A stretch of 64,000 bases of DNA, taken from assembly GCF_000337555.1 (NCBI RefSeq), contig NZ_AOIO01000040.1:1-64000 (forward strand), given 5' to 3'. The notes under the pieces were generated by a model. The model had not been told where the DNA came from and did no database searches. It saw only the letters and a program-made list of their open reading frames with translations. This stretch comes from Natrialba asiatica DSM 12278 (GTDB taxonomy: Archaea > Halobacteriota > Halobacteria > Halobacteriales > Natrialbaceae). The position numbers and the translations under genes were made by a program. Below, in pieces: positions 55,717-60,580 of the stretch (positions within the stretch are counted from its first letter, which is position 1; the number at the start of each line of letters is the position of its first letter).

Positions 55717-56382
55717 TTGCAACGCCTCGCCTTCGCCGGGTCGGCCTACGTCGGCGTCTTCGCCCGCGCGACCGACTCGTGCGTGCTCGTTCGTCCCGAT
55801 GTCGACGACGACGCCGTCGCCGACCTGACCGACGAACTCGAGGTGCCCGCAATCGAAACGACCGTCGGTGGGTCCTCGACGGTCGGCGCCTTAGCGACCG
55901 GTAACGAAAACGGCCTGCTCGTCAGCTCTCGCGTCCTCGAGTACGAACGCGAGACGCTCGCCGAAGAGGTCGACGTGCCCGTCGCCGAACTGCCGGGCAG
56001 TATCAACGCCGCCGGGAACGTCGTCCTTGCGAACGATTACGGGGCCTACGTCCATCCGGATCTGCCTCGGGAGGCAACCCAGATCGTCAGGGAGACGCTC
56101 GACGTGCCCGTCGAACGCGGCGATCTCGCGGGCGTCCGAACCGTCGGTACCGCCGCCGTTGCGACGAACGACGGCGTCCTCTGTCACCCCAAGGCAACCG
56201 ACGAAGAACTCGACGTCTTGGAGAACGTTCTCGATGTCCGTGCCGACGTCGGGACGATCAACTACGGCGCACCCCTCGTCGGCTCCGGCCTGCTGGCAAA
56301 CGAGTCCGGCTACGTCGTCGGCCAGGATACGACCGGTCCTGAACTCGGCCGAATCGAAGATGCGCTCGGGTATCTCGACTGA
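55717..56382 (+). CDS. eif6: Translation initiation factor eIF6
   Basis: Anti-association factor that binds the large subunit. A pentein of five repeated ~45-residue units around [18 protein letters not shown] and [18 protein letters not shown]. 221 residues, normal length. The start is a TTG at 55717, nine bases after the eL31 stop: rare, but no in-frame ATG or GTG lies close enough upstream, and the sequence right after it ([18 protein letters not shown]) is the canonical N-terminus. Confidence 0.93.
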
Positions 56383-56768
56383 TCCGTCACGCCACGGCTC
56401 GAGTTGTTTGACGCGGACCCGGACCCGGACCCGGACACTGGACACTGGACACCGGACAGCTAGCATTCGTTTCTGATAGCGTTTCCGTGACTGTATCGCG
56501 TTCGTGATGTGACTCGCAGTGACGGGTAACTCGGTGCGTATCTGGCGAGGGAACGACTACTCGGTCTCAGCGCCGCGATTCCGGTCGCGCTTGCACTGTT
56601 CGGGTCGGTAGCTCGCGGCCTCCGGTGACCGCCGTCCGCGCTAATTGAGAGCGCTCGAACCGACGGAACTCGGCGTGCAGACGGTGGCGGGTGCTGGAGC
56701 AGACTCGATACCACGGGGACCGTCGGAGAACGGACGCAGCCGACTCGCGGGCAGCCGGAATCGCAACG
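56383..56768. other. Intergenic region between eif6 and the ASCH gene
   Basis: 386 bases without a supported gene. Contains the tandem GGACCC/GGACACT repeats near its start and otherwise ordinary GC-rich sequence. In many haloarchaea eL20 would start close after eif6; it does not here. Confidence 0.4.
56414..56459. repeat. Short tandem repeats GGACCC and GGACACT
   Basis: Three GGACCC units followed by GGACACT, GGACACT and a final GGACACC, just after eif6. Arose probably by slippage. The region has no gene. Confidence 0.7.
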
Positions 56769-57080
56769 CTACTGTCGTTCGAATCGGTGGCGGACGACTC
56801 CGCTGGCGTCGTCCCACTCGAAGTCGTCATGAGTGCGGGAGAGCAGTTGCCGATACGCCTCGAGATCGGCCATCCCCTCCGCTCGTGCGTCTTCGTCGGT
56901 CAGGTCGCCGAGCGTACGCTCGGTCACGTCGGTCACTTCGAACGTCGTCTCGCCGATGATAAACGTATCGCCCGTCGACGCGTACTGGTGGCCGCGGTGG
57001 ATCTGGGTGACGTCGCCTTCGAGCACCTGCGTTTGCAGCCGGTTGCTGGGGAGTAACTCGCTCGGGTCGAGTTCGCTCAT
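56769..57080 (-). CDS. ASCH-domain protein
   Basis: A 103-residue protein; FIIGETTFEVTDVTERTLGD, LTDEDARAEGMADLEAYRQL and the N-terminal LPSNRLQTQVLEGDVTQIHR segment fit the ASCH fold (related to PUA), which binds RNA; some members hydrolyse modified nucleosides. Start at 57080 (MSELDPSELLPS); the extra 17 residues in frame are not needed. It is transcribed against the ribosomal operon, separating eif6 from eL20. Confidence 0.8.
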   Translation of the reverse strand: MSELDPSELLPSNRLQTQVLEGDVTQIHRGHQYASTGDTFIIGETTFEVTDVTERTLGDLTDEDARAEGMADLEAYRQLLSRTHDDFEWDDASGVVRHRFERQ

Positions 57081-57185
57081 ACCCGTGCGTACGCGGCCCC
57101 GGACGAAATCGGTTGGCACCGCAGCGGACATCTCGGGCGGTTCATATAATCAACATTTATACTGTCTTCCGACGAGACGTTTCGT

Positions 57186-58136
57186 ATGGTCCTCCAATCG
57201 GTATTCGCCCGGTTTCGAACCGGGTTCGAGATCGCGAAGGCATCCTTCGGAGTCTTGCGGCGCGAGAAGTGGTTACTCGCGTTTCCAGTGTTGTACGGAG
57301 CGTCCTGGCTCGTCGGGTTGATCGGCCTCGTCGGCGGGATCGTCGCGGCGCTCTTCGGCGTTGGCTACGGGATGGAGCTCTTAGAGCAAGTCACGAATGT
57401 CGCTCCCGGAAGCGCCGATGCGGCTGTGACCGTCACGCTGGTCGCCGCCGCGGTCGGGTTCATGTTCGTCGCAACGTCGATTGCGACGTTTTTCAGCGCG
57501 GCGCTCGTCCACGCCGTCGGCACCCTCTTTACGGACGAACCGACGGGGATCCGGGCCGGACTCGGAGGTGCCTGGGAATCGCGCCGGACGATTCTCGCGT
57601 GGGGCGTCGTCGGCGCGGCGGTCGGCCTGCTCTTTCGGGCGCTCGAGAGTCAGGACGGACTGCCGGCCCAGATCATCAGATCGGTTGCCGGCTTTGCGTG
57701 GTTCGCGATGACGTTTTTCATCGTTCCCGTAATCGTCTTTCAGGACGGGAGCGTTCGCGATTCGATGCGCGAAAGCGTCGGCCTGTTCCGCGAGACGTGG
57801 GGGCAGGTCGGTGGCATCAACCTCGGCGTCGGACTCGTACTGCTGCCGCCGATGATCCTCACCGGACTCGCTGGAATCGGCCTGCCGGTGTTCGTCCTCG
57901 CCGATCCCTGGTCGGTTCTCGCGTTCACGCTCGTGCCGACGCTGCTGGTGCTCGGTGCGCTCATGGTCGTCTACCAGGCCGCAACCGGGGTCGCAAAGAC
58001 GGCGCTGTACCAGTACGCACGTGAGGGGACGCTGCCGCCGGAGTTCGACGGTATCGATCCCGATACTCTGACGCGGTCTTCCGGACCGACCGGTGCGCTG
58101 AACCAGCCGCCGAATCAGAAGTCCGGCCAGATATAG
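57186..58136 (+). CDS. DUF6159-type multi-span membrane protein
   Basis: A 316-residue membrane protein with about six hydrophobic segments (WLLAFPVLYGASWLVGLIGL; VTLVAAAVGFMFVATSIATF; TILAWGVVGAAVGLLF; AWFAMTFFIVPVIVFQDGSV; GVGLVLLPPMILTGLAG; SVLAFTLVPTLLVLGALMVV) and conserved-looking VVFQDGSVRDSMRESVGLFR and TAGVAKTALYQYARE-like (TGVAKTALYQYAREG). DUF6159 by recall. Membrane role unknown. Confidence 0.75.
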   Translation: MVLQSVFARFRTGFEIAKASFGVLRREKWLLAFPVLYGASWLVGLIGLVGGIVAALFGVGYGMELLEQVTNVAPGSADAAVTVTLVAAAVGFMFVATSIATFFSAALVHAVGTLFTDEPTGIRAGLGGAWESRRTILAWGVVGAAVGLLFRALESQDGLPAQIIRSVAGFAWFAMTFFIVPVIVFQDGSVRDSMRESVGLFRETWGQVGGINLGVGLVLLPPMILTGLAGIGLPVFVLADPWSVLAFTLVPTLLVLGALMVVYQAATGVAKTALYQYAREGTLPPEFDGIDPDTLTRSSGPTGALNQPPNQKSGQI

Positions 58137-58362
58137 ACGATAGTAGCCGCTGAAAGTCGGTGCATACCTGGTCGCACGGCCGCCGTGCAATCAGCGTGCC
58201 AACAATACCAGTTATCACATAGGAACTCCCTCGGAACCCGACTCACACGGTCCGCCTCCTCCGGAGACGATCGGTCCCGTTGAGACGATCGAGACGCCAG
58301 TGCCGACGGAGAAATGGCTATGGAAGGGAAGATTCTTCCGACTGCCTGCCGGAGTGATAGCC

Positions 58363-58541
58363 ATGAGTCAGTTTGCGGCCACCGGCCGGTTCACCGTTCG
58401 CGACGGCTACGCCGCGGGTGGAACTCGGCTACGGCCGGAAACACGGCTGTTACCAACGAGCACTCCGATACTCGTTTCGACAGTCAGCGTGGACTCACGC
58501 GCACGGAAATCGAATACGACGACTACGACGACGGAGGTTGA
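58363..58541 (+). pseudogene. rpl18a: Ribosomal protein eL20 (LX) relic, frameshifted
   Basis: The start (MSQFAATGRFTVRDGYA) is eL20-like, and the C-terminal half continues in another frame as EHSDTRFDSQRGLTRTEIEY, ending at the TGA at 58539. Joining the frames needs two indels within ~20 bp (around 58413-58427): a stretch RVEL lies in the third frame between them. Each can be either a one-base gain or a two-base loss. Besides the shifts, usually fixed positions differ (GSQHGLKRT reads DSQRGLTRT), so this looks like decay, not a single read error. Its place between eif6 and pfdA is that of eL20 in other haloarchaea. Confidence 0.6.
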
Positions 58542-58547
58542 TGCAGA

Positions 58548-59000
58548 ATGAGCCAACAGCAACTTCAGCAGCTCTCCCAGGAACTGCAAGAGATCGAAGA
58601 ACAGATCGACGCACTCGAAGCAAACGTCGAAGAAATCCAGCAAGAGCAGACCGAAGTCGACGAGGCCATCGACGCGCTCGAAACCCTCGAGAACGATTCG
58701 ACGGTGCAGGTCCCACTCGGCGGCGGTGCCTATCTGCGTGCAACCATCGACGATATCGACGAAGCGATCGTCGAACTCGGATCGGACTACGCCGCGGAGT
58801 TCGAGCACGACGACGCAGTCGATGTCCTCGAACGCAAGAAAGAGACCCTCGACGACCAGATCGACGACCTCAACGACCAGATCGAGGATCTCGAAGGCGA
58901 GAGCGACGAACTCGAATCGCAGGCCCAGCAACTCCAACAGCAGGCGATGCAACAGCAGATGCAGCAACTCGGTGGACAGGGCCAGGAGCCAGACGAGTAA
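58548..59000 (+). CDS. pfdA: Prefoldin alpha subunit
   Basis: Chaperone that hands unfolded proteins to the thermosome. A 150-residue helical protein: two long coiled-coil helices (QQLQQLSQELQEIEEQIDAL and the C-terminal QIDDLNDQIEDLEGESDELE) flank the beta hairpin VQVPLGGGAYLRATIDDIDE. A Gln-rich tail closes it. Start ATG at 58548 is 6 bp after the eL20-relic stop. ftsY follows. Confidence 0.94.
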   Translation: MSQQQLQQLSQELQEIEEQIDALEANVEEIQQEQTEVDEAIDALETLENDSTVQVPLGGGAYLRATIDDIDEAIVELGSDYAAEFEHDDAVDVLERKKETLDDQIDDLNDQIEDLEGESDELESQAQQLQQQAMQQQMQQLGGQGQEPDE

Positions 59001-59140: not shown

Positions 59141-60580
59141 ATGTTCGATAACCTGAAGGAGAAACTCGGAAGCTTCCGCAAGGATGCCGAGGAAGCAGCC
59201 GAAGAGAACGTAGAGGAAGTCGACGATACAGCAGTCGAAGCTGAAGCCGAAGTCGAAGCCGAGGGAGAGGGGGAAGGAAACGAAGGAGGCGAAATCGACC
59301 CCGACGCTGCCGAAAGCACTGTCGAGGAGGCTCCCCCCACTCGGGACGCTGCCGCCCAGACAACGGACGAGCCCGCCACGCCGGACGACGCTGCGGCCGC
59401 CGCTTCGAGTTCACCCTCGGAACCCAGCGACGGTGGCGAGGAGGCCGTGACTGACTCTCGGTCGGAGCCAGCGCCGGCAACCGACGCGACACCTGACTCG
59501 CCGTTGGGTTCCGGGTCAGCATCGCGACCCGACAACGAGACAGCGACACCGGCAGATACCACTGACGCCGACGCTGAACTCGAAGAAGACGCTGCGTCGG
59601 CGGTCGACGAGACTGAGGACGAAGGCGAGGGAGAGGACGAGGACGAAGACGAGGCAGCAGCCGAAACCGAAGCCGACGACGCCACCGGTACCGGCTTCGG
59701 TCGCAAAGCCAAATCCTTCGTCAAGGGCAAGTTCGTCATCGAAGAGGAGGACCTGGAGGACCCGCTTTACGAACTCGAGATGGCGCTACTGTCGAGCGAC
59801 GTCGAGATGGGCGTCGCCGAGGAGATTCTCGACAACATCCGCGATGAACTCGTCGGGGAGACGCGCACGTTCACGACCTCGACCGGCGACGTCGTCGAAA
59901 ACGCGCTTCGGGAGGCGATCCACGACGTGATCAGCGTCGGCCAGTTCGACTTCGACGAGCACATCGCGGTCGAGGACAAGCCGGTCACGATCGTCTTCAC
60001 CGGCGTCAACGGCGTCGGAAAGACGACCTCGATCGCGAAGCTCAGCCGCTACTTCGAGGATCGTGGCTACTCGACGGTGATGGCGAACGGAGACACCTAC
60101 CGCGCGGGTGCCAACGAGCAGATTCAGGAACACGCCGACGCGCTCGACACGAAACTCATCGCCCACGAACAGGGCGGAGACCCCGCTGCGGTGTTGTACG
60201 ACGCCGTCGAGTACGCCGAAGCCAACGACATCGACGTCGTCCTCGGCGACACGGCAGGGCGACTGCACACGAACGAGGGGCTGATGGACCAACTGGAGAA
60301 AATCGACCGCGTCGTCGATCCCGACATGACGTTGTTCGTCGACGAAGCCGTCGCCGGGCAGGACGCGGTCAACCGCGCCCGCGAGTTCAACGACGCGGCC
60401 GAAGTCGATGGTTCAATTTTGACGAAAGCGGATGCGGACTCGAACGGTGGGGCGGCGATTTCGATCGCACACGTAAGCGGCAAGCCGATTCTGTTCCTCG
60501 GCGTCGGTCAGGGGTACGACGACATCGAGCAGTTCGATCCGGACGAGATGGTCGATCGGTTACTCGAGGAAGACGCGTAG
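59141..60580 (+). CDS. ftsY: Signal recognition particle receptor FtsY
   Basis: GTPase that docks SRP and the ribosome at the membrane. After a short MFDNLKEKLGSFRKD start comes a ~190-residue acidic, Ala/Glu/Asp-rich disordered region, much longer than in bacteria. The NG domain follows: GVNGVGKTTSIAKL (G1, ~287), DTAGRLHTNEGLMDQL (G3, ~369), TKADADSNGG (G4) and the closing GVGQGYDDIEQFDP. Located after pfdA as in other haloarchaea. Confidence 0.95.
   Translation: MFDNLKEKLGSFRKDAEEAAEENVEEVDDTAVEAEAEVEAEGEGEGNEGGEIDPDAAESTVEEAPPTRDAAAQTTDEPATPDDAAAAASSSPSEPSDGGEEAVTDSRSEPAPATDATPDSPLGSGSASRPDNETATPADTTDADAELEEDAASAVDETEDEGEGEDEDEDEAAAETEADDATGTGFGRKAKSFVKGKFVIEEEDLEDPLYELEMALLSSDVEMGVAEEILDNIRDELVGETRTFTTSTGDVVENALREAIHDVISVGQFDFDEHIAVEDKPVTIVFTGVNGVGKTTSIAKLSRYFEDRGYSTVMANGDTYRAGANEQIQEHADALDTKLIAHEQGGDPAAVLYDAVEYAEANDIDVVLGDTAGRLHTNEGLMDQLEKIDRVVDPDMTLFVDEAVAGQDAVNRAREFNDAAEVDGSILTKADADSNGGAAISIAHVSGKPILFLGVGQGYDDIEQFDPDEMVDRLLEEDA

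Follow-up and report, generated by a model that had tools for sequence, protein, structure and literature searches.

A frameshifted eL20 relic upstream of pfdA in Natrialba asiatica: a lost gene probably retained for its reading frame

The eL20 relic and its surroundings

In the window, by which is meant the whole 64,000-nt stretch of Natrialba asiatica DNA that was analysed, the prefoldin alpha subunit gene, pfdA, is preceded by the remains of a gene for eL20 and followed by an ORF that we take, by sequence recognition, to encode the ftsY-like GTPase (SRP receptor) (Table 1). Comparison of the eL20 of genome G018 (58 aa) with the whole 4.4-Mb genome gives exactly two matches, 58363-58440 and 58425-58532, which are in differing frames and adjoin pfdA. 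DNA alignments of the relic with four intact eL20 genes score 75-118, the maxima from 1000 shuffles of each being 36-48. An earlier note on this DNA had described N- and C-terminal eL20-like pieces in separate frames, with the start at 58363 and with normally conserved positions altered, and that much stands: intact ...GSQHGLKRT... is represented by ...DSQRGLTRT... in the relic. The two indels within about 20 bp that it deemed necessary are not what multiple alignment calls for; there is a single 1-nt deletion, at 58424/58425, and a net insertion close to the 3' end (+13 nt with respect to G018). Jointly, the -1 and the +13 return the frame, so that from the original start to the pfdA overlap there is an uninterrupted leader ORF, overlooked when the relic was considered to end at 58541. 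Its likeness to eL20 is in the first third, the remainder being frameshifted.

Both similarity to intact eL20 genes and synteny with those located beside pfdA mark the relic as a pseudogene. The relic and pfdA are also arranged as a termination-reinitiation pair, being co-directed, with a -4 overlap (ATGA) and a Shine-Dalgarno within the upstream ORF. The interval (56383-58362) between an aIF6-like ORF (55717-56382) and the relic holds further genes, among them a membrane-protein-like ORF (57186-58136); in several other lineages, unlike the window, aIF6 comes immediately upstream.

Table 1. Features of the eL20 relic and its neighbors (window coordinates)
Feature	Position	Strand	Remarks
Promoter-proximal motif	58327..58339	+	GGAAGATTCTTCC; conserved; spacing to start codon constant in the family
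Start codon	58363..58365	+	ancestral eL20 start, now that of the leader ORF; 23 nt past the motif
eL20-like N-terminal piece	58363..58424	+	in the frame of the start codon; MSQFAATGRFTVRDGYAAGGT; from alignment and eL20 search
Site of 1-nt deletion	58424..58425	+	common to the window, G001 and G006
eL20-like C-terminal piece	58425..58541	+	not in the frame of the start codon; own TGA at end
Leader ORF, 62 codons	58363..58551	+	eL20 start codon to ATGA overlap with pfdA
Proposed Shine-Dalgarno for pfdA reinitiation	58533..58538	+	GGAGGT; derived from eL20 coding sequence
ATGA overlap	58548..58551	+	pfdA ATG 58548-58550; leader ORF TGA 58549-58551
pfdA (prefoldin alpha subunit)	58548..59000	+	proposed beneficiary
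Presumed ftsY-like GTPase gene (SRP receptor)	59141..60580	+	next 3' gene

Loss of eL20

By pfdA, the named records most similar to the window are N. taiwanensis and N. aegyptia, at 93-94% across the segment matched, and comparison of whole pfdA genes places the genomes G001 and G006 nearest (94-95%). In both of these genomes the leader ORF is identical in length and frame to that of the window. As these sister species carry the identical lesion, at the same base, sequencing error, previously regarded as the less likely account, is now excluded. With the PF01775 profile, no eL20 match was found in the organism's own genome (99.78% complete assembly) or in any of 7 Natrialba genomes, and in the window genome there is no match above the curated cut-off that is in an open frame. 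Of the options formerly entertained, that of a second copy is accordingly rejected, as far as 99.78% completeness allows, and that of loss is upheld. The relic is real, and neither a sequencing error nor accompanied by a spare copy. More broadly, the same profile matches eL20 in 82 of 125 genomes of the family and in 306 of 391 Halobacteriales genomes, with 85 of the 391 lacking a match.

The other option was recoding, with programmed frameshifting still yielding eL20 from the relic. The out-of-frame C-terminus is indeed still recognisable in G001 and G006. However, conserved residues have already been replaced in all three species, the C-terminal differences between the window species and these two are mostly nonsynonymous, and other lineages have no C-terminus at all. 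Given the degeneration of the downstream frame, and with no canonical slippery heptamer seen by eye in the relic, this option is rejected as scarcely conceivable.

Loci in other genomes lacking eL20

Regions upstream of pfdA were read in 91 genomes without eL20, 41 of them from the family and 50 from elsewhere in the order. In 90 of these a start codon is present 22-26 nt past the conserved motif, the distance being exactly 23 nt in 81 of the 90, and it is likewise 23 nt in all 44 intact eL20 loci examined. The start codon so positioned is of two kinds. In 36 genomes it is that of pfdA itself, a fused arrangement found in G002-G005 (the N. magadii-like half of Natrialba), most of genus g19 (Natronococcus), G099 and all 23 genomes of family f9. 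The remaining 54 have there the beginning of an open ORF, 12-62 codons long and here termed debris, whose end overlaps the pfdA start by -4 or -1. For coupling to be possible the start-to-start distance must be 2 mod 3, as it is in 54/54 debris loci; the overlap in intact eL20-pfdA pairs is -4 in 34 and -1 in 10 of the 44 examined. Debris that is uncoupled, separated or frame-broken was found in none of the 91 genomes. The sole exception to the two classes is G131 (family f8; locus L257), which is eL20-less, has no promoter motif and is neither fused nor debris. Its pfdA comes after an aIF6-like ORF with a short gap.

The short ORFs of families f4, f7, f10 and f11 have little or no recognisable eL20 sequence left, and it is their position that points to descent from eL20. 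ORFs of 12 or 13 codons, unvarying in length, persist even in genera where the third positions of pfdA have diverged heavily. In genus g10, at loci L045, L039, L051, L052 and L048, the eL20 ORFs are of normal length and without frameshift, with many conserved residues altered and with similarity below PF01775 detection; another member of that genus, G029, has an intact gene. Decay of the same kind may be at an early stage in these altered g10 ORFs.

Independent losses were counted from mixed presence and absence within taxonomic labels, on the assumption that eL20 was never regained, and number at least 10. At least 8 left debris, 7 of those with changed length. Within the family the events are in g9, g10 and g19, with g1 as a separate event; among families f3, f4, f7, f10 and f11 are mixed and f9 has wholly lost the gene. 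By an EF-2 tree the family has 10 loss clades, yet that tree divides several GTDB genera (g1, g3, g9, g19, g21, g23 and g28 among L178-L237), which suggests that EF-2 has been affected within the family by transfer or recombination. Because of these splits the tree was dropped as unreliable for the count.

Promoter motif and repeated start region

The motif GGAAGATTCTTCC is a 13-bp near-palindrome conserved across the order, with the version GGAAGATACTTCC in f9, and without mismatch it has a single occurrence in the genome. ATTCTT within it extends from -31 to -26 with respect to the A of the relic ATG, which would be the position of a TATA box if the transcript were leaderless, with its start 0-5 nt ahead of that codon; the case for leaderlessness is drawn from the constant 23-nt spacing as read in sequence. 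Perhaps the near-palindrome is a core promoter element overlapping the site of a regulator. In 24 of 95 loci of the family the start regions of eL20 and pfdA share 8-9 identical nt (ATGAGTCA...), a direct repeat that may ease exact deletion of eL20, and hence fusion, in one step.

Conservation of frame and not of peptide

In the leader frame of 17 debris representatives there are 0 internal stops in 483 codons. The same DNA read in its other two frames has 21 stops in 966 codons, from which 10.5 would be expected in the leader frame (P about 2.5e-5), a rough null in that it uses alternative frames of the same DNA, antisense-free, and some debris retains ancestral codon bias. Variable columns in nine groups are distributed over codon positions 1, 2 and 3 as 48:51:50 for leader ORFs and 85:58:342 for pfdA, with 21:17:100 for intact eL20 of the same length class. 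Purifying selection on codons was thus not detected in the leader ORFs, and since their variable columns fall evenly over the codon positions they are unlike protein-coding genes. On these comparisons the reading frame is maintained and the peptide sequence is not. The former description of a gene decaying in place holds for its protein content, and is incomplete in that start, frame, Shine-Dalgarno and stop/start overlap have been retained.

Could the open frame of a plain neutral pseudogene with no remaining role be due to chance in GC-rich DNA? Protein content is clearly gone, substitutions are even over the three codon positions, and high-GC DNA is poor in stops, to the extent that 16 of 34 alternative frames among the debris representatives are free of them. 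Against that, every one of the 54 debris ORFs has the coupling frame and a -4 or -1 overlap, and for 7 length-changed losses (at least that many being independent) the probability of the frame is at most (1/3)^7 = 4.6e-4, counting frame alone and not the missing stops. Persistence of 12- and 13-codon ORFs at constant length beside heavily diverged pfdA third positions is also difficult to reconcile with neutrality, a reading that is already disfavoured and that we regard as unlikely.

Functional small peptides, for instance a truncated eL20, are another potential reason for the ORFs being open and long-lived, and in some lineages the initial residues are eL20-like. However, the ORFs are without codon periodicity (48:51:50) and, between lineages, without a common motif, they range from 12 to 62 codons, and about two thirds of the Natrialba ORF is frameshifted sequence. 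We consider a peptide function very improbable.

Before pfdA, 17/17 debris representatives have a Shine-Dalgarno (4-8 nt) but 6 of 7 fused ones do not, which agrees with a role restricted to reinitiation. Its retention in all debris representatives could be taken to mean that the DNA is kept solely as an untranslated sequence signal, be it the Shine-Dalgarno or an element downstream of the promoter. A signal of that kind would require neither a fixed frame nor a stop-free stretch, though, and the Shine-Dalgarno has been dropped in the fused lineages and in Haloferax volcanii fails in de novo initiation (PMC6728339). The signal-only reading too has very little to recommend it.

A proposed leader ORF for termination-reinitiation

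What very probably accounts for the relic is that it serves as a content-free leader ORF handing ribosomes to pfdA by termination-reinitiation. The transcript would begin at or beside the old eL20 ATG, i.e. would be leaderless, and ribosomes would initiate there, translate 62 codons whose content is not conserved, terminate where the TGA overlaps the ATG of pfdA, and reinitiate on that gene, aided by the GGAGGT a short way upstream. Any frameshift or stop breaking the path of the ribosomes would then shut off pfdA, and the survivors would be those with frame-preserving damage only, or with an exact fusion rendering pfdA itself leaderless. The proposal is that the start codon, frame and stop of eL20 have been kept because pfdA depends on them.

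Background for this comes from H. volcanii, where 72% of protein-coding transcripts are leaderless (PMC4983044). There, in 9 of 9 overlapping pairs, premature termination in the first gene reduced translation of the second to almost nothing, and Shine-Dalgarno sequences work in reinitiation and not in 5' UTRs (PMC6728339). Coupling is almost gone at a distance of about 20 nt (PMC10666635). In E. coli the final 15 nt of the upstream gene are enough for coupling. If the H. volcanii rules hold, pfdA would be reachable only via the relic, which must then stay open, with exact fusion as the only clean escape.

Relation to known systems and implications

Archaeal loss of eL20 and translational coupling are each already known. 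The accessible text of Yutin et al. 2012 (PMC3353972) has eL20 (L18ae/LX) in 78 of 87 archaeal genomes with independent losses inferred, and there concerns presence and absence of the same protein, as distinct from what remains at the locus. Haloarchaeal termination-reinitiation at ATGA/TGATG overlaps (Huber et al. 2019, PMC6728339; Huber et al. 2023, PMC10666635) shares with the present case co-directed genes with -4/-1 overlaps, an internal Shine-Dalgarno and a leaderless first gene; in those pairs both genes code for proteins, whereas here upstream coding content is lost and the path of the ribosome alone remains. With leader peptides and upstream ORFs the relic has in common a short ORF, here proposed to be translated, on which downstream expression depends, and differs in its origin from a dead gene, its unconserved peptide content and the lack of any sign of sensing or attenuation. 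Antonov et al. 2013 (PMC3711429), like the present analysis, recognise selected frameshifted genes and coupled pairs, though in the portion of that work consulted these are separate classes and a pseudogene kept for coupling the next gene is not described. A literature search that missed most subscription journals found no description of lost-gene remains kept as a coupling leader, and in the literature searchable the constrained remains of lost eL20 appear to be undescribed.

It is proposed that a lost operon gene is not freely erasable because first genes are leaderless and the Shine-Dalgarno is for reinitiation only. Were this general in haloarchaea, a prospect for which we would put the chances at a little under even, such a gene would either persist as a content-free adapter ORF or go by exact start-to-start fusion, and adapter ORFs would constitute a genome-wide class of short translated ORFs, with eL20 remains the first worked example. 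The leader-ORF reading of the eL20 remains would account for short unannotatable ORFs at the starts of operons, and caution is in order in counting such ORFs as small proteins. The losses document the frequency with which the haloarchaeal ribosome has dispensed with eL20. They also amount to a natural replicate experiment, at least 10 separate losses each being in one of the two states predicted by strict coupling, for a mechanism previously known from reporter assays, and they point to a dead gene being under selection for its reading frame and not for its sequence.
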